From Sanyastnella coralliicola (GTDB lineage Bacteria; Bacteroidota; Bacteroidia; Flavobacteriales_D; Sanyastnellaceae): a stretch of 64,000 bases of DNA. Positions 46,197 through 63,841 of the stretch are shown here, piece by piece. Every line of letters starts with the position of its first letter. The stretch's first letter is position 1. A program made the position numbers and the translations under genes. The notes under the pieces are model-generated. The model was not told the origin of the DNA and did not search any database. It saw only the letters and a program-made list of their open reading frames with translations. The stretch lies in NCBI RefSeq assembly GCF_030845195.1, contig NZ_CP132543.1:1257501-1321500 (forward strand), given 5' to 3'.

Positions 46197-46355
46197 GACC
46201 CGTTCCGATTATTTGATTCTTAAAAAATTGAGTGTTAGTCTTTTCTTAAGCAGATGTAAACAATTAGGGTTTACTATTTCTTAACTTGTAACCGATTATG
46301 ATGCAACCTTTATATAGCGAGATGTGTCATAGTTATGCAAGGAACCTATAAGCCA

Positions 46356-49300
46356 ATGAGAGTATTAACCTGGATAAGTGTATTCATCTTCGCGCTAGCC
46401 TCTACCAGCAGCGCACAAGTGGTAATGAACGAGTTCTCGTTCGCCAATTACGATGATCTTAATGTTGATCCCGGAGGATGGGATGGAGAGTTTGAAGATT
46501 GGGTTGAATTTTACAACCCAACTGGAGCAGATGTAGATATCAGTGGATACTATATGACTGACCAAGCTGATAACCTCGATAAATTTGAAATTCCGGCAGG
46601 AACAATCGTTCCGGCAAACGGAAGACTTCTTGTTTTAATCACGAATGACTTCGACGAAGACCCTTACATGTGGGGATGGTTGAACACGAACTTCAAGGTG
46701 AATCAAACCCAAGGAGAATCAATCATCTTCTCTGACCCTGGTTTGACACCAATCGATTCATTCACATTCGGAACGGATATTGATCCTAATCAACGAAACC
46801 ACAGCTACGGTCGTTCAACTGACGGTGCTGCTGATTGGGTGATCTTTACCAACGCCTCTCCGGAAGACCCGAATGGAGGACCAAGCGGAACTTCATATGC
46901 CGCTGCACCTGTAATTGATATGGAAGCAGGTTACTACGCAGGAGGAACAACGCTTACGATTTCTTCTGAGCCGAATACCACAGTGTACTACACAACAGAT
47001 GGTAGCGAACCAACAGATGGTTCAGCTATGTACACAGGTCCTATCGATATCAATGCTACTACAGTAGTAAAGGCAATTGCTTACCACGATAACGATACGA
47101 ACGTTCTTCCAAGTTTGGTGGAGACAAACTCATACTTCACTGGAGATGATCAGCACAGTATCGTCGTTTGTAGTGTATCAGGACCAACCCTTTCAGACGG
47201 GGCGTGGAACGGAGATGAGCTAATGGCACTTGAGTTCTTCTATCCAGGAGGAGGATTTTGGTGTGAAGGGCTTGGAGATTCTAACGAGCACGGAAACGAC
47301 TCAAATGCATACGGACAGCGTGGTTTCGATTACGTAGGTCGTGATCAACTTGGTTACAACCACGAAATCGAGGAAGAGCTTTTCCACGAGAAAGATCGTG
47401 ATCACTACCAGCGTCTTATCTTCAAGGCCGCTGCTAATGACAACTACCCATTCGAACCAGGAGCACACATCCGTGATGCTTACGTTCACACACTCTCACA
47501 TAAGGCAGACCTTGATATGGATGAACGTACAAGCGAGTCTTGTATCGTTTACATCAACGGTGAGTACTGGGGTGTATACGAATACCGTGAAAAAATTGAT
47601 GACCTCGATTTTACAGATGAGTACTATGATCAGCCACGTCACTTCGTAGACTTCCTAAAGACTTGGGGAGGAACATGGGAAGAGTATGGATCAATCGATG
47701 ATTGGAACACACTTGTGAACTTCGTAACAACTCAAGATATGACTGACCCTGCAAACTACGAGTACGTAGAGTCAGTGTACAACACAGGAAGCTTGATCGA
47801 TTACTTCATCCTTAACTCGTACATCGTATCTGCTGACTGGTTGAACTGGAACACAGCATGGTGGAGAGGTCGTCACCCGGATGGAGGTGCAAAGAAATGG
47901 CGCTACATCCTTTGGGATATGGATGCGTCATTCGGACACTATGTGAACTACACCGGAGTTCCGGATACGGGCCCAGAAGCTGATCCATGTAACCCTGAAG
48001 TTTTGGGTGATCCAGGAGGTCAAGGACACGTTCCAATTTTGAATGCCCTTCTTGAAAATGAAGATTTCTACGCTGACTACATCAACCGATGGGCAGACTT
48101 GAGTAACTCATACCTTAATTGTGATTACATGCACTATTTGCTTGATAGCATGGTGAATGAAATCGAGCCTGAAATGCAACGTCAGTGTGATCGTTGGGGA
48201 GGAAACATTGCTGGATGGGAAACAGAACTACAGCAGCTTCGTGATTTCATTGACACACGCTGTGAGCAAACAGTAGTTGATGGTATGGAAGATTGCTACG
48301 ACGTAGAAGCAATCACAATTACGATCATCATCGAAGGAATTGGAGAAGTAGAAATCGAAACCTTTGATATTGGTCCTGACATGGTGCCATGGGAAGGGAT
48401 TTACTTCGCAGGGTTCCCGATCAACCTAGATGCAGAAGATGAAGGACTAGGAGTCTTCCTCTATTGGGAGGTGCTAGAAGGTGACTTGGTTATCGCTGAT
48501 CCTGAAAACCCGAGTATCATTATCGAGCCCACAGGAGATGTGACCATAGTGGCCTACTTCTTGAACGACCTAGATCCACAAAACGTGATGTTCGACGTTC
48601 AGCCAGAAGGTGCAGGAGATATCCTCTTCGGTGGAGTTCCTATGGGACCATACCCAAACACGCAGCTAGTTGATGGAGGTCCAAGCAGCATTAGCGCTGT
48701 TGGAGCTGATCAGTGGTTCGTGTTTGATCACTGGGAAACAATCAACGCAAACGTTAATCCAGACGAGTTCTCGGCGGATGGAACAACTTTCATCGCAACA
48801 ACGGATACGATCGTTGCTGTCTTCAATGAACTCCCACACTTCGATATCAACGTTGCTGTGGAGCCAGCAGGAGCTGGATGGATCACAATGGATGGAACAG
48901 AACTAGATAGCTACCCTTGGACGGGTACAGTTGCTGGAGAAGTTGACATCGCGTTTGCCACTGCAGGATATGATGAGTGGAGTGTGTTCGATCACTGGGA
49001 AGTGAATAACACACCAATCAACCCAGATGAATTTGCACAGAACATCACCCTGAACTTCACAACCACTGATACGATCGTGGCGGTGTACAATGTGATTCCT
49101 CACAACACCATTACGATACTCGTTGAGCCAGCTGAAGCAGGACTTGTTATTGTTGACAATACACTCACAGTGAATGAGTCATGGTCTGGTGAACTAGAGG
49201 CAGAGACGCCAACTCCATTTGCGGCCTTCCCAGAAGCATTCTGGTACTTTGACCGTTGGGAGTCTGTAAATCACTTGCCAACACCTGACAACCGATCTTC

Positions 49301-49649
49301 AGTCGTTGATTTTGAATTCTACAACAGCGATACCATTGTTGCGCACTTCGTGGAAGAACCATTCAACGTATACGTACCGAATAGCTTCACACCGAACAAC
49401 GATGGAAAGAACGATGTGTTCCTTCCTGTAGGTTCAGCATGGAAAGATGGTACTTACGAACTGTGGGTCTTCAACCGATGGGGAGATGTAGTTTTCTACT
49501 CTGATGATCCAACGAAACCTTGGAACGGAAGCCACCAAGATGGTACACACTACGTAGCCGATCAGATCTACGTCTATCGATTGACAGTGCAACCGGTTCA
49601 CAGTGTAGAACCAGAAGAATTTAGCGGACACATTACAGTGTTCAGATAA
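46356..49649 (+). CDS. CotH kinase family surface protein with T9SS sorting domain
   Basis: 1097 residues from ATG 46356, which begins the signal peptide MRVLTWISVFIFALASTSSA; ATG 46335 is in frame. Modules: lamin-tail domain (about 25-150, FEDWVEFYNPTGADVDISGY); a chitobiase-type C-terminal domain (about 190-260, TVYYTTDGSEPTDGS); a CotH kinase domain (about 270-640, INGEYWGVYEYREKID and LWDMDASFG near 520, the catalytic Asp pair); three InlB-like repeats (FDHWE/FDRWE); and a gliding-associated C-terminal domain (VPNSFTPNNDGKND, VFNRWGDVVFY). CotH kinases phosphorylate secreted proteins. Here the kinase would act at the cell surface. A terminator follows directly. Confidence 0.9.
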   Translation: MRVLTWISVFIFALASTSSAQVVMNEFSFANYDDLNVDPGGWDGEFEDWVEFYNPTGADVDISGYYMTDQADNLDKFEIPAGTIVPANGRLLVLITNDFDEDPYMWGWLNTNFKVNQTQGESIIFSDPGLTPIDSFTFGTDIDPNQRNHSYGRSTDGAADWVIFTNASPEDPNGGPSGTSYAAAPVIDMEAGYYAGGTTLTISSEPNTTVYYTTDGSEPTDGSAMYTGPIDINATTVVKAIAYHDNDTNVLPSLVETNSYFTGDDQHSIVVCSVSGPTLSDGAWNGDELMALEFFYPGGGFWCEGLGDSNEHGNDSNAYGQRGFDYVGRDQLGYNHEIEEELFHEKDRDHYQRLIFKAAANDNYPFEPGAHIRDAYVHTLSHKADLDMDERTSESCIVYINGEYWGVYEYREKIDDLDFTDEYYDQPRHFVDFLKTWGGTWEEYGSIDDWNTLVNFVTTQDMTDPANYEYVESVYNTGSLIDYFILNSYIVSADWLNWNTAWWRGRHPDGGAKKWRYILWDMDASFGHYVNYTGVPDTGPEADPCNPEVLGDPGGQGHVPILNALLENEDFYADYINRWADLSNSYLNCDYMHYLLDSMVNEIEPEMQRQCDRWGGNIAGWETELQQLRDFIDTRCEQTVVDGMEDCYDVEAITITIIIEGIGEVEIETFDIGPDMVPWEGIYFAGFPINLDAEDEGLGVFLYWEVLEGDLVIADPENPSIIIEPTGDVTIVAYFLNDLDPQNVMFDVQPEGAGDILFGGVPMGPYPNTQLVDGGPSSISAVGADQWFVFDHWETINANVNPDEFSADGTTFIATTDTIVAVFNELPHFDINVAVEPAGAGWITMDGTELDSYPWTGTVAGEVDIAFATAGYDEWSVFDHWEVNNTPINPDEFAQNITLNFTTTDTIVAVYNVIPHNTITILVEPAEAGLVIVDNTLTVNESWSGELEAETPTPFAAFPEAFWYFDRWESVNHLPTPDNRSSVVDFEFYNSDTIVAHFVEEPFNVYVPNSFTPNNDGKNDVFLPVGSAWKDGTYELWVFNRWGDVVFYSDDPTKPWNGSHQDGTHYVADQIYVYRLTVQPVHSVEPEEFSGHITVFR

Positions 49650-56201: not shown

Positions 56202-59200
56202 CTAACACTCTTGACCGAAGAGCGCAAGGAAGTCTAGAAGATCTGCCTGCGAAACAGATCCGTCTCCATTCATATCCACGTCTTCGTCACATCCTACAGT
56301 ACAGTTGTACCATTGTAGAAGAATCAAGAAGTCAGCAATATCTCTTACTTGGTCGCCATTGAAGTCACCCATACAAGCTACTGGAAGTACTTCGTCATCT
56401 TCAACAACACCATTACAGTCGTTGTCAATGCCTTCTGCAGTTCCTGGAGCACCCGGATAAACGTCCATTCGAGAATCGTCACAATCATCAGCGTTGGATA
56501 CATAGCCCAATGGCATACTACAGTCAAGAACCGGGAATGCTGGGTCACCGTAGCCATCATTATCTAAATCGAGGTACCATATCATTTGGTCAACTGCTTC
56601 TTCATCGGTAGTCCCGTCACAGTCGTTATCAATACCATCGCATAATTCAGGAGCACCAGGGTAAATGTTCTCATCAGAGTCATCACAGTCTTGGTCATTC
56701 AGAACATAACCTTGAACTGGGTCACAAGAGAAGATAGACTCTCCGGCATTTCCGTAACCATCGTTATCACCATCGGCGTAATAAACTGCGCCTTCAAGAA
56801 CTGTGATGTAACCAACTTTAGTTTCTGCATCGATATCGTCTCCGTTATCAGCAGTCAAGGTCACATCGTAAACACCTGGTACGTTGTAGACAATGCCAGA
56901 TGGGTTTTGATCAGTACTGCTGCTTGGTGTACCTCCCTCGAAGCTCCAAGACCAGTTGTTTGCACCATTTGTACTTAGGTCTGTGAAATTGATACTCTCA
57001 CCCTGACAGATGGTTGTAGCATCAGCGGTGAAGTCAGCGAATTCTAATCCAGCAACAGCCTGACAAGCGCCAATTACAGTAACCACGTTGTGGTAGTCTT
57101 CGTTTACAACATCCGTAATGTTGCTGATACATACTTCTGAGGCATCCAGATTCACGTAGTACACGCGCACCAAAGGCACAGGAGCTAGATTCTTAGGGAA
57201 TACTTGGTTATTGTAAGCCAAGCCAATCACCTTGGTACCACCCAAGCTTGATTGCGGGTTGATATCGTAAACCAAAGGATCCGCAAGGTTCTCTACTGAC
57301 TGAATGGTCAGACCACTCAATTCGAATTCGTAACCTACGATTTCATTGTCTGGGTTGAGAACGTGAATGTCTACATACCCAAGGTCTTCGTTGATATCAC
57401 CAACGCTGAGTGTTGTGGTGTGGTTTGGGTTGATAAACTCATCATCCCAAACACAGTGGTCATGTACCCCGAATTCATCAACGTGATCAGGACCGTAGTG
57501 CAGACATCCAGCGATGAGTGCTGCGTCCGTTACGGTGATGTTGTTATCGTTGTCCATATCTGTACATGGAGAGATCAACGCATCGTTTCCAAGGATATCT
57601 TGAATGTATTGAGCAGCGTCTCCGTTGTCAATGTCTCCATTGTTGTTGACGTCACCTTTAACTACGAGTCCGGGGCAGTTTCCAGCACAGTCTGCAGCAG
57701 CGTCACCAAATGGCACACCGTAACAATCGAAGATAACCGGGCAGTTAATGTCTTTGGTGAAGTTGATCATGTTGCCCGCTCCATCGCGTTCGAATGAAAT
57801 ACATACTGCAGCCCAGTTGTTTTCGTAAGTGAGCTCGTATGATCCGTTTGCATCTGGAGACTGATCCCAGTTCGTGCGAACTACGAGCGTGTAAGAACCG
57901 CCGGGAACATCGGTAAGGTCAACCCACTGACAGCTTAGGCTTGAAGAATAGATGTCACCACATCCTGCAGTGATCCCCATGTTTCCACAAGTGTATTTCG
58001 CTTGTCCACCATCTGAACACTCAAGATCAAGGACACAGAATCCGTTCTTGAAGCCAATTTGTGGCATAGCGTTTCCATCTCCATCATAAAGCACGTACTC
58101 AGCATATCCTTCATAGTGCCAGTGGTTGTGACAGTCGTCATATTCGAATTGATCAGGCTGGTCACCTGGATCTCCGATGAAGTAATCTTCCGTACCAATA
58201 TTTTTGATGTGGGTAGTGAAGCGAATGATTTCACGTTCACCAAATCCCTGCATACACCCTTCGTTTACGTAGCACGCATCATTGTTTGTCAAGGTTGTTG
58301 CATACATACTGTCGTAGAACACGCTACCCAGTACTTCAAGGTCAGGGCCAATACTCGGACATTGAATGTCGCCAGGGTAGAAACACTCACCCGGTGCGCC
58401 TGCGATAGGAAGGAAGTTACATGCTAAAGGATCCATACAACCTACAACAGGTCCCATGTATTCAATCAAGAAGTCAATTGGTTCACCGTCACAAGCTCCA
58501 TCGGTAGCACCGATTCGCAAGTAGTAAGTATATCCACCTTCAAGAAGAGGAGTGATTTCAGCTTGAACTCCACAGAGGTCATCGTTGTATGTAAGCGTTG
58601 CCTCGTTCGTATCATCAAAGATGCCCATGTCACAATTGTCGTACATCCAAATCTTCGTGTCACATGTGGCACGGTCACATGTTGTGATGCGGTATTGACC
58701 ATTTTGAGCTGGAGTGAATGTGTACCATGCGTTAGGGTTAGGCAGGGAATGCTCGCCTTCTCCAACCGAGATAGCGTTGTTACAGTCAAATCCAGGAGGG
58801 CAATTCAAGTTGATTGATTCTGAAACATCGTAATCACCACCAGTGGCGATGCTGTTACCGTCTAGAATGAGTTCGTAGTATCCATTTCCATAACCACAGC
58901 AAATACCGTCGCCGTATGAATCAAAGATGGTGAAGGTGTGGCAGTTATCTTGAATACATACCGTTGTTCCTGTAGACCCACCCGTAGCGATTTGATTGCC
59001 GAATTCATCGTTTAGCTCCCAGCTAATCTCTGCGGGGTAGTTGTCAGGAACAATCACGATTTCAAGTGCCTGTCCTGCTGAGATGATCACATCTTGTGAA
59101 GATTGTGCCGTTTCACCTCCGTTTGATACCTCAAGTGTGGCAGTATAACTTCCTGCTGCATTGTAAGTCACCACAGGATTTGGATCACTAGAAGTTGCCG

Positions 59201-59807
59201 GGTCACCTCCAGGGAAGCTCCAGTTGTATGAATTGACGTTTCCTACACTGGCATCCGTGAATGAGACAGCTGTCTCGCCACAACTTGCTCCAGCATCAAA
59301 GCTGAACACAGCTTCCAAAGCAGGGTAAAGGCAAGAACCATCGTCGTTTGTAGCACATGCGTTGTAATTGTCCGCAGCAGGGTCAGTACAACCGTCAGCA
59401 GCCGAACCCAGTGCAAATGACTGGCTTTCTGAATCGCCATATGCCGCATTTGCTGCAATCATGGCAATCACCACATTTCCGAGGTCATCTGTAATGCTGT
59501 AGTTTCCGTCGATAGCACATGAACCCCATTGAGATCCATTCATTCCATCTCCGTAAGTGTCGCTGATGGTAAAGGTGTAGCACCCGTCAGGGATATCCAC
59601 ATCTGTGGTGTAGGTTTGATCGTTACCATAAGTTCCTGATGCGGTGTTGGCAATAATAATTCCTTGGTCGTCAACAAGTTCCCAAGAAACCTCGCCTCCC
59701 CAGCAGTCAGTAGTAACCGAAATTGTAAGTTGATTTTGAGCAAATGCTCCAATAGATAGTAGCAGGCACAGCCATAGGGCTATCCCATACACAAGCCTCT
59801 CTCTCAT
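56202..59807 (-). CDS. Secreted modular protein with lysyl oxidase, dockerin-like and MopE-like domains
   Basis: 1201 residues from ATG 59807 (signal peptide ends GAFAQ). Two N-terminal Cys/Gly modules (TTDCWGGEVSWEL, FTISDTYGDGMNGSQWG) and a PKD domain. Then a lysyl oxidase domain (about 520-690): copper ligands in CHNHWHYEGYAEY (His560, 562, 564), the lysine of the quinone cofactor in GFKNGFC (Lys587), its tyrosine partner in GCGDIY (Tyr620), then SCQWVDLTDVPGG. Next a dockerin-like pair (DVNNNGDIDNGD; DMDNDNNITVTD), a cohesin-like region, a PKD, two MopE-type DCDD repeats, and a final dockerin-like pair (DFNGDQVRDIAD; DMNGDGSVSQAD). No T9SS sorting domain is seen. Lysyl oxidases deaminate lysine side chains and so crosslink proteins. 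Confidence 0.88.
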   Translation of the reverse strand: MRERLVYGIALWLCLLLSIGAFAQNQLTISVTTDCWGGEVSWELVDDQGIIIANTASGTYGNDQTYTTDVDIPDGCYTFTISDTYGDGMNGSQWGSCAIDGNYSITDDLGNVVIAMIAANAAYGDSESQSFALGSAADGCTDPAADNYNACATNDDGSCLYPALEAVFSFDAGASCGETAVSFTDASVGNVNSYNWSFPGGDPATSSDPNPVVTYNAAGSYTATLEVSNGGETAQSSQDVIISAGQALEIVIVPDNYPAEISWELNDEFGNQIATGGSTGTTVCIQDNCHTFTIFDSYGDGICCGYGNGYYELILDGNSIATGGDYDVSESINLNCPPGFDCNNAISVGEGEHSLPNPNAWYTFTPAQNGQYRITTCDRATCDTKIWMYDNCDMGIFDDTNEATLTYNDDLCGVQAEITPLLEGGYTYYLRIGATDGACDGEPIDFLIEYMGPVVGCMDPLACNFLPIAGAPGECFYPGDIQCPSIGPDLEVLGSVFYDSMYATTLTNNDACYVNEGCMQGFGEREIIRFTTHIKNIGTEDYFIGDPGDQPDQFEYDDCHNHWHYEGYAEYVLYDGDGNAMPQIGFKNGFCVLDLECSDGGQAKYTCGNMGITAGCGDIYSSSLSCQWVDLTDVPGGSYTLVVRTNWDQSPDANGSYELTYENNWAAVCISFERDGAGNMINFTKDINCPVIFDCYGVPFGDAAADCAGNCPGLVVKGDVNNNGDIDNGDAAQYIQDILGNDALISPCTDMDNDNNITVTDAALIAGCLHYGPDHVDEFGVHDHCVWDDEFINPNHTTTLSVGDINEDLGYVDIHVLNPDNEIVGYEFELSGLTIQSVENLADPLVYDINPQSSLGGTKVIGLAYNNQVFPKNLAPVPLVRVYYVNLDASEVCISNITDVVNEDYHNVVTVIGACQAVAGLEFADFTADATTICQGESINFTDLSTNGANNWSWSFEGGTPSSSTDQNPSGIVYNVPGVYDVTLTADNGDDIDAETKVGYITVLEGAVYYADGDNDGYGNAGESIFSCDPVQGYVLNDQDCDDSDENIYPGAPELCDGIDNDCDGTTDEEAVDQMIWYLDLDNDGYGDPAFPVLDCSMPLGYVSNADDCDDSRMDVYPGAPGTAEGIDNDCNGVVEDDEVLPVACMGDFNGDQVRDIADFLILLQWYNCTVGCDEDVDMNGDGSVSQADLLDFLALFGQEC

Positions 59808-59848: not shown

Positions 59849-60583
59849 TTATTCGGACTCTTCTTCTGTAACACCTGATCCCGGCTTCCAATCCCACTCA
59901 TTTAGAACACGTTGGAAATGATCAGGTAAAGGGGAGTTAATCGTAATCGCACCACCATCCGGATGCTCAAATCGAAGCTTGGATGCATGTAAAAAGAGCG
60001 CAGGATGATCTAACTGATCTCGGAAATATTGATTGTGTTTCCGATCTCCGTGACGGTTGTCACCTATGATCGGATGTCGCAAATGGGAAAAGTGAAGTCG
60101 AATCTGATGGTAGCGTCCAGTCTTAGGTTCTACCTCCACAAAGCTGTAACGAGAAGTGGGGTATCGACTGATTTCAAAGTCCTTTTCAATGTGATATAGC
60201 GTCTTGTAATGCGTTAAGGCCTCTTTCAACGGCGCGTCTTTGTCTTTCTGTAGAGCCTTTTCTACGATTCCTGATTCCTGTGTAAATCCGCGTACCATCG
60301 CTAAATAGGTTTTGCTGATCTCTCTTTCGAGGAATTGTGCTTTCAAAAAATTGAGAGTATCAACGTCTTTCGAGAATACAATCAATCCCGAAGTCGGCTT
60401 ATCTAATCGATGCACTGGATCTACCTTAACTCCAAGTAAATCAGCCAACCACTTTCGAAGATTCGTCCGCTCGTAAAAGTCGATCGAAGTGCGATGAACG
60501 AGCATTCGGTTAGGTTTGAAGACGACCACAATCTTCTCATCCTCAAATAATATGCTTGGCTTTCCAATGGCTTCCTGTTGCAT
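59849..60583 (-). CDS. RluA-family pseudouridine synthase, TruC-like
   Basis: 244 residues from ATG 60583 (an in-frame TTG six codons upstream is less likely). The catalytic Asp is in VHRLDKPTSGLIVF near 58. The C-terminal block GRYHQIRLHFSHLRHPIIGDNRHGDRKHN near 155 is typical of TruC, which makes pseudouridine 65 in some tRNAs. No S4 domain. Target by similarity only. Confidence 0.87.
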   Translation of the reverse strand: MQQEAIGKPSILFEDEKIVVVFKPNRMLVHRTSIDFYERTNLRKWLADLLGVKVDPVHRLDKPTSGLIVFSKDVDTLNFLKAQFLEREISKTYLAMVRGFTQESGIVEKALQKDKDAPLKEALTHYKTLYHIEKDFEISRYPTSRYSFVEVEPKTGRYHQIRLHFSHLRHPIIGDNRHGDRKHNQYFRDQLDHPALFLHASKLRFEHPDGGAITINSPLPDHFQRVLNEWDWKPGSGVTEEESE

Positions 60584-60685
60584 TACAAACGCATTCCTCA
60601 ATAAAATGGCTATTTTCGCTCGACAAATTTACAACGCCAGACAACCATTTTAGGCTTTTGGAAGAGTAATAATAGAAAGGATGAG

Positions 60686-60693: not shown

Positions 60694-60745
60694 TGCTCCT
60701 ATTCTTTTTCGCCAAGAGCTTGGGCAACAAATGGGAAGATGTAAT

Positions 60746-63700
60746 ATGAAAAGAATACTAGCTGTACTACTAATGTTAATTTCTGGAGTTGGTGCGTTCG
60801 CGCAAGCTACCGGAAACTTTATCGTAGAAGTAGATCAAGTGCACTACGGACCTGTTGGTACCGTTGATTTGAACGGTTACATTACCTACTCAGTGTATGC
60901 TGAATTTACGAATGAAACTGATTTCCTTTCAGCAATCTTTGGGCTTTTACAAGACGACGAATTTCCAGATGATCAAGACATTTTTATGTCAGGTGATTGT
61001 GATTTCTTCAATGACGAGACATTTGGGGGATATATCGTGAATGTTGCTGCTCCTGGTGTTTGTTCAGGATTCCCTGAAGCTTGTTTTGACACCTACTGGA
61101 CCATTGGCCAGAGTTTTTCTATATCTGATCCAGGTAATACTCAGGTTGCCGTCACTGAACCGGCAGTTTTGACAACCACTGACCCTTCGGCAGAGCTAAT
61201 TGACGATGGAGTTATTTTTACTCTTAACGGACAACCGAATGGTATTGCGGGTCCGGATTTGCTAATTAAAATCGCGCAAGTAACTACCTGCAGTGAGTTC
61301 ATCGACCTCGATTTTTGTTTGCAGGTATTCGTTGAAGGAGACAATGACAACATCCAGGAATTATGTCCAGATGTACCGTTCACATTTCCAAACCCATGCC
61401 TTGCAAACCCATTTGACGTTACACCAACCGTAACTACTGACCTGTTATGTAACGGTGAACTTGCAACGGTTGAATTTGACCCGGGAGGCAATGGACCAGT
61501 TGATTGCCAACTATTCACTTACACTGATGTTGACACAACCATCGTTTCTACGACGGTTGATGATTTTATTTACGAAGACCTTGGCGAAGGAGACTATTTC
61601 GTGGTTTTCACAGACGAAGTAGGATGTATCGATACTACGGATGCTTTCGGATTCGTTGAGCCTGAAGTTCTTGAATTGACATTAGATCAAACTGCTGATA
61701 ACCTTTGTTTCGGTGACGCTATCGCGGAATGGTGTCCAACGATCACTGGAGGTACCATCCCTTACAACATCGATTTGATCAACCCTGACTCTTCAGTGGA
61801 TTCATTCAATGAGGGTGATTGCTTCTCTAACCTTGGTTGTGTTGATGGACAAGGCGATTACACGGTAACGATTACTGATGACAACGGATGTCAGGTCTCA
61901 GAAGACATCTCAGTGACATGTCCTGAAGAGATTGTGATTGATGCTACGACAAACCCAATTCTATGTAACGGGCTAGAAACAGGGTCAATCGAACTGAATA
62001 TTACAGGAGGTACTGGTGTATTGACACTAGACTTTACAGATCCAGATTTCACTTTTACTCCACAAGAGGCTCCAATCGATCTTACGATTTCTGATCTAGG
62101 TGCTGGTCAATACACATTGACAATCACTGACGAAAACAACTGTCAGGAGACGCAAATCTTCGACCTAACGGAACCAGATGCCCTTGATGTGACATTCACA
62201 AGCACTGACATCGTGTGTTTCGGAGAGTGCAGTGGGGTTATTGAATTCACCGCTGACGGTGGAACAGGTCCTTTCGAATTGGTTGTAACTGATCTTGACG
62301 GTAACGTTGAGATCCCTACTGAGCTTTGCTCGGGTGAGCACATTGCAACGGTATTGGACAACAACGATTGTCCTTTCATTGACACATTAACGATTACAGA
62401 ACCACCACAGATCGTATTTGATCTCGATACAACGAATGTGAGTTGTTTCGGAGCGAATGATGGTGAAATCTGTATTTCTAATGTGACCGGTGGAACAGGG
62501 GTGGTTCAATGGCAGATTTCATCTCCGCCATCTGAGGCCACGGCCTTAGGTACTGAGCCTTGTTTCTCTGATCTCCCGGCAGACAACTACACGATGAACA
62601 TCATTGACGAGATTGGATGTACCATTATCGTTGATGGATTGATCATTGAAGAACCTGCAGAACTCGTGATTGATGCTGTTGGAACGGACGTTACTTGTTT
62701 CGGGCTTGACAACGGTATGATTGAAGTGAATGCCTCAGGTGGAACAGGTACGATCTCCTTGACAAGCCCTGAGACACAAGAACTCCCATTCACGATAGAG
62801 AACTTGGCCCCAGGAAACGTCAACGTAGTCATCACAGATGAAACAGGATGTCAAGACAGCGTTGTCGTTGATATCAACGAGCCACTTGAATTGACTGTTG
62901 TTCTTAACGGAACAACCGACATCTCTTGTGGTGACGATTGTGACGGTGCGGTTGATCTAGATATATCTGGTGGTACTGGAGAAGTGGCGTTGTTCTTAAA
63001 CGATGTGCCATCTGTGCCAGTAGGACTATGTGCTGGTGTATACGAAGCGATTGTAATTGACGAGAATCAATGTCAAGACACGGTTAACTTCGAAATCGAG
63101 GAACCTGAACCAGTTCAGTTCTCTCTTCTAATTGAGCAAGTAACGTGTACCGGAATGAATGACGGTTCAGCAGTAGCGGTTCCTTTTGGAGGAACAGGTG
63201 ACCCTGCAAACTTCGAGCTGACCTTCTTCCCAGTAGATGCTGACGAAAACAACCTGTTCGAAGGAGAATACACTTATCAAGCGATTGACTCAGTAGGATG
63301 TGTATTCGATACAACCTTCTTCGTGACGGCTGAAATTGAAACTGACCTTAGCGTAACTATCTTCACTAGTCCAGTAACATGTTGGAATGAAGCAGATGGT
63401 ACAGCCACTGCTGCCGTAACTGGAGGCACTGAGCCATTCACCTTTGAATGGAATGATCCTGATATGCAGACTACAGCCACTGCGGTTGGACTTGCAGAAG
63501 AGGTTTACTCGGTGACTGTTAGTGATGGTGATGGATGTATTCTGTCATTCTTCGCAGAAGTAGAACCAACTGTTGGATGTTTCTTTATCGCTGATGCGTT
63601 GACTCCAAACGGAGACGGTGCCAACGATGAATGGATTATTGGAGGTCTTGAATTCTTCCCGAATTCGCTCGTTCAAGTCTTCAACCGTTGGGGACAACTA

Positions 63701-63841
63701 CTATATGAATCTAGAGGATACTCAACCCCTTGGGATGGGACATGGAATGGTAACGCGTTACCAGTGGCAGACTACTACTACGTAATCACGTACGACGAGT
63801 CGAAGGAACCGATTCTAGGAACAGTAACCATTAAATACTGA
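60746..63841 (+). CDS. SprB-repeat surface protein with gliding-associated C-terminal domain
   Basis: 1031 residues from ATG 60746, giving signal peptide MKRILAVLLMLISGVGAFAQ (ATG 60731 is in frame). The N-terminal ~230 residues are a unique beta-rich domain. Then about eight SprB-type repeats, each with a Cys-F/W-G start and a GGTG core (ITGGTGVLTLDF, ADGGTGPFELVV, VTGGTGVVQWQI, ASGGTGTISLTS, ISGGTGEVALFL). The end is a type B sorting domain (ALTPNGDGANDEW, VFNRWGQLLYES). SprB is the mobile adhesin of gliding flavobacteria. The SprF/PorP gene right after it is the usual partner needed for its secretion. Confidence 0.92.
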   Translation: MKRILAVLLMLISGVGAFAQATGNFIVEVDQVHYGPVGTVDLNGYITYSVYAEFTNETDFLSAIFGLLQDDEFPDDQDIFMSGDCDFFNDETFGGYIVNVAAPGVCSGFPEACFDTYWTIGQSFSISDPGNTQVAVTEPAVLTTTDPSAELIDDGVIFTLNGQPNGIAGPDLLIKIAQVTTCSEFIDLDFCLQVFVEGDNDNIQELCPDVPFTFPNPCLANPFDVTPTVTTDLLCNGELATVEFDPGGNGPVDCQLFTYTDVDTTIVSTTVDDFIYEDLGEGDYFVVFTDEVGCIDTTDAFGFVEPEVLELTLDQTADNLCFGDAIAEWCPTITGGTIPYNIDLINPDSSVDSFNEGDCFSNLGCVDGQGDYTVTITDDNGCQVSEDISVTCPEEIVIDATTNPILCNGLETGSIELNITGGTGVLTLDFTDPDFTFTPQEAPIDLTISDLGAGQYTLTITDENNCQETQIFDLTEPDALDVTFTSTDIVCFGECSGVIEFTADGGTGPFELVVTDLDGNVEIPTELCSGEHIATVLDNNDCPFIDTLTITEPPQIVFDLDTTNVSCFGANDGEICISNVTGGTGVVQWQISSPPSEATALGTEPCFSDLPADNYTMNIIDEIGCTIIVDGLIIEEPAELVIDAVGTDVTCFGLDNGMIEVNASGGTGTISLTSPETQELPFTIENLAPGNVNVVITDETGCQDSVVVDINEPLELTVVLNGTTDISCGDDCDGAVDLDISGGTGEVALFLNDVPSVPVGLCAGVYEAIVIDENQCQDTVNFEIEEPEPVQFSLLIEQVTCTGMNDGSAVAVPFGGTGDPANFELTFFPVDADENNLFEGEYTYQAIDSVGCVFDTTFFVTAEIETDLSVTIFTSPVTCWNEADGTATAAVTGGTEPFTFEWNDPDMQTTATAVGLAEEVYSVTVSDGDGCILSFFAEVEPTVGCFFIADALTPNGDGANDEWIIGGLEFFPNSLVQVFNRWGQLLYESRGYSTPWDGTWNGNALPVADYYYVITYDESKEPILGTVTIKY
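61717..61729 (-). repeat. Dispersed 13-mer, ATA variant
   Basis: TTCCGCGATAGCG on the minus strand; in the SprB-like gene, read Asp-Ala-Ile-Ala-Glu-Trp. Confidence 0.5.

Follow-up and report, generated by a model that had tools for sequence, protein, structure and literature searches.

A gene on the minus strand of the Sanyastnella coralliicola genome, at positions 56202–59807 of a stretch of 64,000 nucleotides from contig NZ_CP132543.1 (hereafter the window), specifies a multi-module protein of 1201 residues with a lysyl oxidase (LOX) domain. Judged from the sequence and from structural models, we consider it likely that the product belongs to the lysyl oxidase family of copper amine oxidases, is secreted and carries docking modules. 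The open reading frame (ORF) starts with ATG; a GTG at 59897, 30 codons upstream, is an alternative start and would give a protein of 1231 residues. Residues 1–23 (59739–59807) resemble a signal peptide by eye, and no sorting domain of the type IX secretion system (T9SS), whether of type A [TIGR04183/PF18962] or type B [PF13585/TIGR04131], was found in the protein at E values up to 1. This agrees with a preliminary description, made from the sequence, which spoke of a secreted protein of this length lacking a T9SS tail. Pfam recognizes one Lysyl_oxidase domain, two PKD domains, two stretches of Cu-binding_MopE and Dockerin_1, while an NCBIfam scan of the whole protein gave no family match.

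The catalytic domain occupies residues 484–690 (57738–58358), as judged by Pfam, alignment to the PDB and fold. PF01186 matches residues 520–673 [E 7.4e-29; 101.3 bits against a cut-off of 20.4], and the gene is the sole match to this family in its own genome at E ≤0.001. A phmmer search of the PDB returned human LOXL2 [9.9e-20, 5ze3]. In this alignment His560, His562 and His564 (58116–58130), the putative copper ligands, correspond to LOXL2 His626, His628 and His630; Lys587 (58047–58049) and Tyr620 (57948–57950), candidates for the lysine tyrosylquinone (LTQ) cofactor, correspond to Lys653 and Tyr689. The LOXL2 numbers were taken from PMC9659206. Lysine and tyrosine are 33 residues apart, compared with 36 in LOXL2 and 35 in human LOX (K320/Y355, PMC4448552).

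A scan of named genomes returned 541 related stretches, of which the best 80 were kept. All five residues are the same in every one of the 80 rows aligned, these being the window sequence and 79 of the best 80 loci, which are not independent samples; L039 was left out as its ORF runs into a masked stretch. Eight cysteines match LOXL2 573, 579, 625, 657, 663, 673, 685 and 695, that is, all eight within the aligned part. In LOXL2 they make four of the five crystal disulfides, the fifth pair (732–746) being outside the aligned fragment.

An AlphaFold2 model of residues 481–917 had a pLDDT of 89.7 and a pTM of 0.82. Foldseek ranked 5ze3 first for this model [1e-13], and VIA-align, whose structure scores are a re-scoring of Foldseek's list, superimposed its LOX part on the same chain with Z 20.6 and 2.6 Å over 192 residues at 31% identity. 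By computation, then, the domain has the LOX fold and the full set of copper and cofactor residues. Since Lys and Tyr are 16.6 Å apart in the solved LOXL2 precursor (PMC9659206), a model which kept Lys, Tyr and His apart would not disprove a LOX. The preliminary description had named the strings CHNHWHYEGY, GFKNGFC and SCQWVDLTDV as matching animal LOX, and had proposed a PF01186 search and a structure prediction. All three strings occur exactly, the ligands and the cofactor pair align as given above, the last string lies in a CQWVDxTDVP block common to LOXL2, and the profile search and the predicted structure both lead to LOX.

The LOX domain is followed by a cysteine-rich linker and dockerin (residues 706–790; 57438–57692) and by a cohesin-like module (residues 791–917; 57057–57437), an order seen in the alignment of the loci. 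The Dockerin_1 match [PF00404, 30.5 bits for the whole protein against a cut-off of 22.9] has its best stretch at 717–765. Profiles for the three parts, trained on every second row of the alignment so that half of its rows were in the training set, recovered all three in order from 107 of 111 ORFs, a number which includes some genes fetched twice. The misses were two masked ORFs (L016 and L039), L046, whose dockerin scored too low for the profile yet is visible in the alignment, and L102, which is a LOX domain alone. The core is conserved.

VIA-align related the dockerin region to the double dockerin 8x39 [Z 8.2, 2.3 Å, 65 residues], a Z score close to the level at which the tool warns of common arrangements, and here Pfam agrees on dockerin. 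The module after it resembles cohesin 6kgf [Z 11.2, 2.9 Å, 120 residues] and other cohesin chains [Z 7.6–11.0]. PF00963 (Cohesin) had no match in the protein, and its best score in the own genome, at another place, was E 0.658. Its identity as cohesin-like is therefore backed by the predicted fold, not by sequence. The setting of PKD, cohesin-like and dockerin-like parts given in the preliminary description stands for PKD and dockerin, which Pfam recognizes, and for the cohesin-like part in fold but not in sequence. A search of the own genome with a profile built from the LOX cohesins yielded the LOX module itself and one further place, at E 0.034; because PF00963 misses the LOX cohesin too, it does not follow that the genome has no other cohesins.

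The remaining modules flank this core. Residues 24–480 (58368–59738) form the N-terminal modules, with a Pfam PKD domain at 180–239; the first of them is a GBD_T9SS_assoc match in all three family members scanned. On the other side lie a second PKD region (residues 918–1003; 56799–57056), recognized by Pfam and placed from a PDB alignment (913–998) and by eye, and two stretches of MopE-type, putatively metal-binding repeats (residues 1004–1142; 56382–56798). The latter match PF11617 [64.9 bits against a cut-off of 27, E 7.8e-18], best at 1040–1069. The repeats are rich in Asp, and the metal they bind may be calcium rather than copper.

The protein ends in a dockerin-like tail (residues 1143–1201 and the stop codon; 56202–56381), identified by profiles and by a model. 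The C-terminus is closed in 74 loci, of which 33 match a profile of this tail and 41 do not; of the latter, 38 carry TIGR04183 (T9SS type A) and 37 PF18962. When the 33 tails and that of the window were scanned, Dockerin_1 was found at E ≤0.01 in 20 of 34, and NF041540, a "GC-type dockerin", at E ≤1 in 34 of 34, with a best value of 3.1e-7; the window tail, at 23.1 bits, falls short of the cut-off of 29. The C-terminal 95 residues gave a model of modest confidence (pLDDT 75.8, about 90 over the last 55) that resembles dockerin 2y3n [Z 9.9, 1.9 Å, 58 residues]. When 31 dockerin-like tails and 38 others are placed on a quick tree made from the core alone, at least two changes are required; the 38 are taken to be the TIGR04183 matches, and the tree sets aside L062, L079 and L081, which have another dockerin-like ending, and L041, L043 and L047, where by eye the T9SS tail is lacking or lost. 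The dockerin-like tail thus occupies the place of the T9SS type A domain of many orthologues, through at least two separate changes.

The same tail profile matches 62 places in the own genome. Of the best 30, 29 end within four residues of the stop and one has 45 further residues; in L137 and L138 the match reads on through a stop codon, and many of the remaining 32 cover half of the profile. NF041540 itself was found at 21 places at E ≤0.001, seven of them above the cut-off, and the papers searched include none under its name or number. The genome also holds at least 150 T9SS type A domains and 53 of type B, two of these under the cut-off. Across 24 genomes searched, the tail was present at E ≤1e-10 in 13 of 14 from the family and in none of ten others from the order. 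The tail looks like a sorting or anchoring domain related to NF041540. The cohesin-like module of the LOX protein was considered as the receptor of such tails and rejected, for four family genomes negative for LOX (G002, G016, G019 and G020) keep 17, 11, 4 and 1 of them. The earlier suggestion of self-assembly through cohesin and dockerin parts gained no direct support and meets the same four genomes.

PF01186 was matched in 39 of 60 genomes searched. Besides the own genome, a match was found in 31 of 36 relatives within the genus or family and in 7 of 23 genomes of the same order, a split counted from the search table in which some matches are partial. A draw across the phylum gave LOX in 4 of 395 genomes, namely the own genome, one of the family and two weak matches. 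The best 80 of the 541 stretches bear names such as Flavobacteriales, Cryomorphaceae, Crocinitomicaceae, Saprospiraceae, Chitinophagales and Lewinella cohaerens, and are mostly metagenome-assembled according to their titles. The closest of them, with 99% identity over the domain, is Flavobacteriales bin ALOHA_ZT_13, whose name suggests a marine source; the named strain L. cohaerens DSM 23179 has a homolog (L110). Of 27 pattern-matching stretches in viral contigs none encodes a relative. Among plasmids the window domain found one record, that of Gemmatirosa, and the Gemmatirosa sequence in turn found three further records, from Streptomyces clavuligerus. The Gemmatirosa gene (L201) lies on the 1.1 Mb plasmid 1 of G. 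kalamazoonensis.

Divergent from the LOX gene, on the plus strand at 60731–63841, lies a gene whose product combines seven SprB repeats with a T9SS domain of type B (Pfam and NCBIfam). A relative of it occurs near LOX in 21 of 80 loci, as does an IcmF-like ORF; these counts come from the best 80 of the 541 loci, many of which have short flanks. The SprB-repeat gene is followed, just outside the window, by what we take to be a PorP/SprF-like gene (L208), relatives of which are near LOX in 17 of 80 loci. The LOX gene is preceded on its own strand by a gene at 59849–60601, presumably for a pseudouridine synthase judging from a motif, the end of which is 41 bases from the LOX start; an ORF related to it is found close to LOX in 12 of 80 loci. 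Elsewhere in the window, 46335–49649 encodes a protein of 1104 residues in which a CotH kinase domain, a lamin tail domain and a T9SS domain of type B are recognized.

We propose the following course of events. The protein would be exported across both membranes, and with copper and oxygen the LTQ cofactor would form from Tyr620 and Lys587. The enzyme, which on sequence and model is probably active and a new architectural variant of LOX, would then oxidize primary amines (lysine side chains of extracellular polymers, possibly also small amines) to aldehydes, hydrogen peroxide and ammonia being set free in the reaction; the dockerin and cohesin-like modules would hold the enzyme on the cell surface or within the extracellular matrix. 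The main outcome would be the modification, probably by cross-linking, of extracellular material mostly other than the lysine-poor surface proteins of the cell itself. That cross-linking, which the preliminary description had suggested for surface or matrix proteins, is the role for which the enzyme has been selected we suggest tentatively, our judgement falling a little short of evenly balanced.

Several observations weigh against this proposal. Pfam and NCBIfam scans recognized no outer-membrane export signal in the protein. LOX is lacking in one of two genus relatives and in four of 34 other family members, three of these five genomes being at 96–99% completeness or better, and because it is absent from these relatives the enzyme must be dispensable. 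Lysine is scarce where a cross-linker of the surface might find it: the LOX protein has 9 in 1201 residues (0.7%), the window's six cargo proteins with T9SS domains have 2–18 each (0.2–2.7%), and the SprB-repeat neighbor is without a conserved lysine outside the start of its signal peptide and its C-terminal region in an alignment of 21 rows. Three other proteins that were counted contain 3.8%, 6.0% and 6.0%. The cargo proteins and the LOX protein are acidic as well as lysine-poor. Because the cell's own cargo is so poor in lysine and the neighbor offers no conserved target, the substrates of the proposed enzyme would be expected outside that cargo.

The same scarcity of lysine in the surface proteins would suit an active LOX that serves the oxidation of small amines, for nitrogen gain, production of hydrogen peroxide or destruction of amine antibiotics, rather than cross-linking. 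There is a precedent in the archaeon Haloterrigena, whose LOX is active once refolded with copper and accepts a broad range of amines, among them taurine, glycine, histamine, aminoglycosides and polymyxin, and for which a part in nitrogen supply was suggested by the authors (PMC6452851). A conserved architecture of dockerin, cohesin-like and PKD modules would, however, exceed the needs of a soluble scavenger, and we regard this as an unlikely explanation which nevertheless deserves to be taken seriously.

Less probable still is that the enzyme cross-links the surface proteins of its own cell, either the SprB-repeat neighbor or itself, into a stiff coat. The recurrence of a relative of this type B T9SS protein near LOX would fit such a role. 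The neighbor has, however, only 4 lysines in 1036 residues, and in the 21-row alignment (one row of which, L034, is a fragment of a second ORF) lysine reaches 30% of rows at three positions only: position 7, at the signal start (9 of 21), position 995 (12 of 21, the window protein having Arg) and position 1035, at the end of the sorting domain (19 of 21). On these grounds we rejected the neighbor as the LOX substrate. Self-cross-linking as a fixed mechanism was also rejected, Lys587 being the sole lysine of the LOX core that passes 60 of 80 rows. Nor is a low lysine content peculiar to cells with LOX. In fragments of type B cargo the median was 0.57% in 14 LOX-positive and 0.78% in 13 LOX-negative genomes [Mann-Whitney, p 0.48], a comparison which is small and confounded by kinship. 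It used 59 of 60 loci, of which 12 were dropped because their ending did not match the pattern, whereby one of 14 negatives (G057) was lost. Lysine depletion as a protection from LOX was set aside on this result.

That the LOX fold is catalytically dead and acts as a binding or structural module we think very improbable: the literature matches listed include no biochemical assay of a bacterial LOX with several modules, but the five catalytic residues, besides being invariant in the 80 rows, can also be seen in the distant sequences of Gemmatirosa, Streptomyces and class B.

The preliminary description had also proposed a phylogeny with animal LOX. A tree built from 47 LOX domains places the 41 rows of the window type (class A) on one side of a branch with support 98/83 and groups LOXL2 with them against five other bacterial rows (98/81); a grouping of LOXL2 with Gemmatirosa was rejected [approximately unbiased test, p 0.029]. 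LOXL2, Streptomyces, Gemmatirosa and L203 are long branches, there is one animal row with few outgroups, and the grouping of LOXL2 with class A was named after the tree had been seen, so this junction is best treated as a lead from the sequences. A second, diverged class of LOX is also found in Bacteroidota (L205 and L206 of the same order, L203 of the same class). It keeps HxHxH, Lys and Tyr, but the CQW block and the majority of the eight cysteines are missing. By eye L205 and L206 have a T9SS-like tail, and one genome (G041) has both classes.

Of the eight cysteines the Gemmatirosa row keeps only 573, 625, 657 and 673. These are two of the LOXL2 crystal disulfides whole, with two others wholly absent, and fit the crystal rather than the bovine pairs. 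We make no claim from evolution on the disputed disulfide pairing: over the 47 rows half-pairs number 6 against 8, and some of them are shifts in the alignment. Should the sister relation to animal LOX hold under wider sampling, it would bear on the origin of the animal enzyme. The full combination seems to us improbable as a whole: that a Bacteroidota family of LOX-dockerin-cohesin surface proteins makes a LOX-modified extracellular matrix and that this class, given its CQWVDxTDVP block and eight LOXL2-type cysteines, is closer to animal LOX than any other bacterial group, so pointing to the bacterial side of that enzyme's origin.

LOX hardens collagen and elastin in animals, and PMC4448552 and PMC6452851 leave open what role it has in bacteria and archaea. 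A lineage in which 31 of 36 relatives carry LOX and nearly all ORFs show one fixed order of modules is a tractable place to ask what that role might be. The type of enzyme is not new, bacterial LOX, including that of Bacteroidetes, having been published in 2015 (Grau-Bove, PMC4448552). The combination of LOX, dockerin and a cohesin-like module in one protein is apparently undescribed, no description having been found in the titles and beginnings of abstracts among the literature matches listed, a search whose coverage mostly leaves subscription papers outside.

Compared with animal LOX as represented by human LOXL2 [5ze3], the window protein shares the fold (Z 20.6), the copper histidines, the LTQ lysine and tyrosine, the eight cysteines and the CQWVDxTDVP block. 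Unlike it, the window LOX is fused to dockerin and cohesin-like modules, shows no SRCR match in a Pfam scan, and has Asp where the animal copper motif has its first histidine, a residue also reported as absent from bacterial LOX (PMC4448552). With the prokaryotic enzymes (PMC4448552; Haloterrigena, PMC6452851) it has in common a LOX domain with the essential residues. Those enzymes are described as mostly simple in architecture, "most (except three)" (PMC4448552), whereas, leaving the three published exceptions aside, the LOX of the window is part of a conserved multi-module protein. The predicted folds of its docking modules are like those of cellulosome cohesins and dockerins [6kgf, 2jh2, 8x39, 2y3n]; unlike in the cellulosome, the cohesin-like module and the dockerin share one chain with an oxidase, and the former escapes the Pfam cohesin profile. 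In its C-terminus, finally, the protein is like the NF041540 proteins anchored by a GC-type dockerin, all of the tails scanned matching that family and the window tail doing so below the cut-off.

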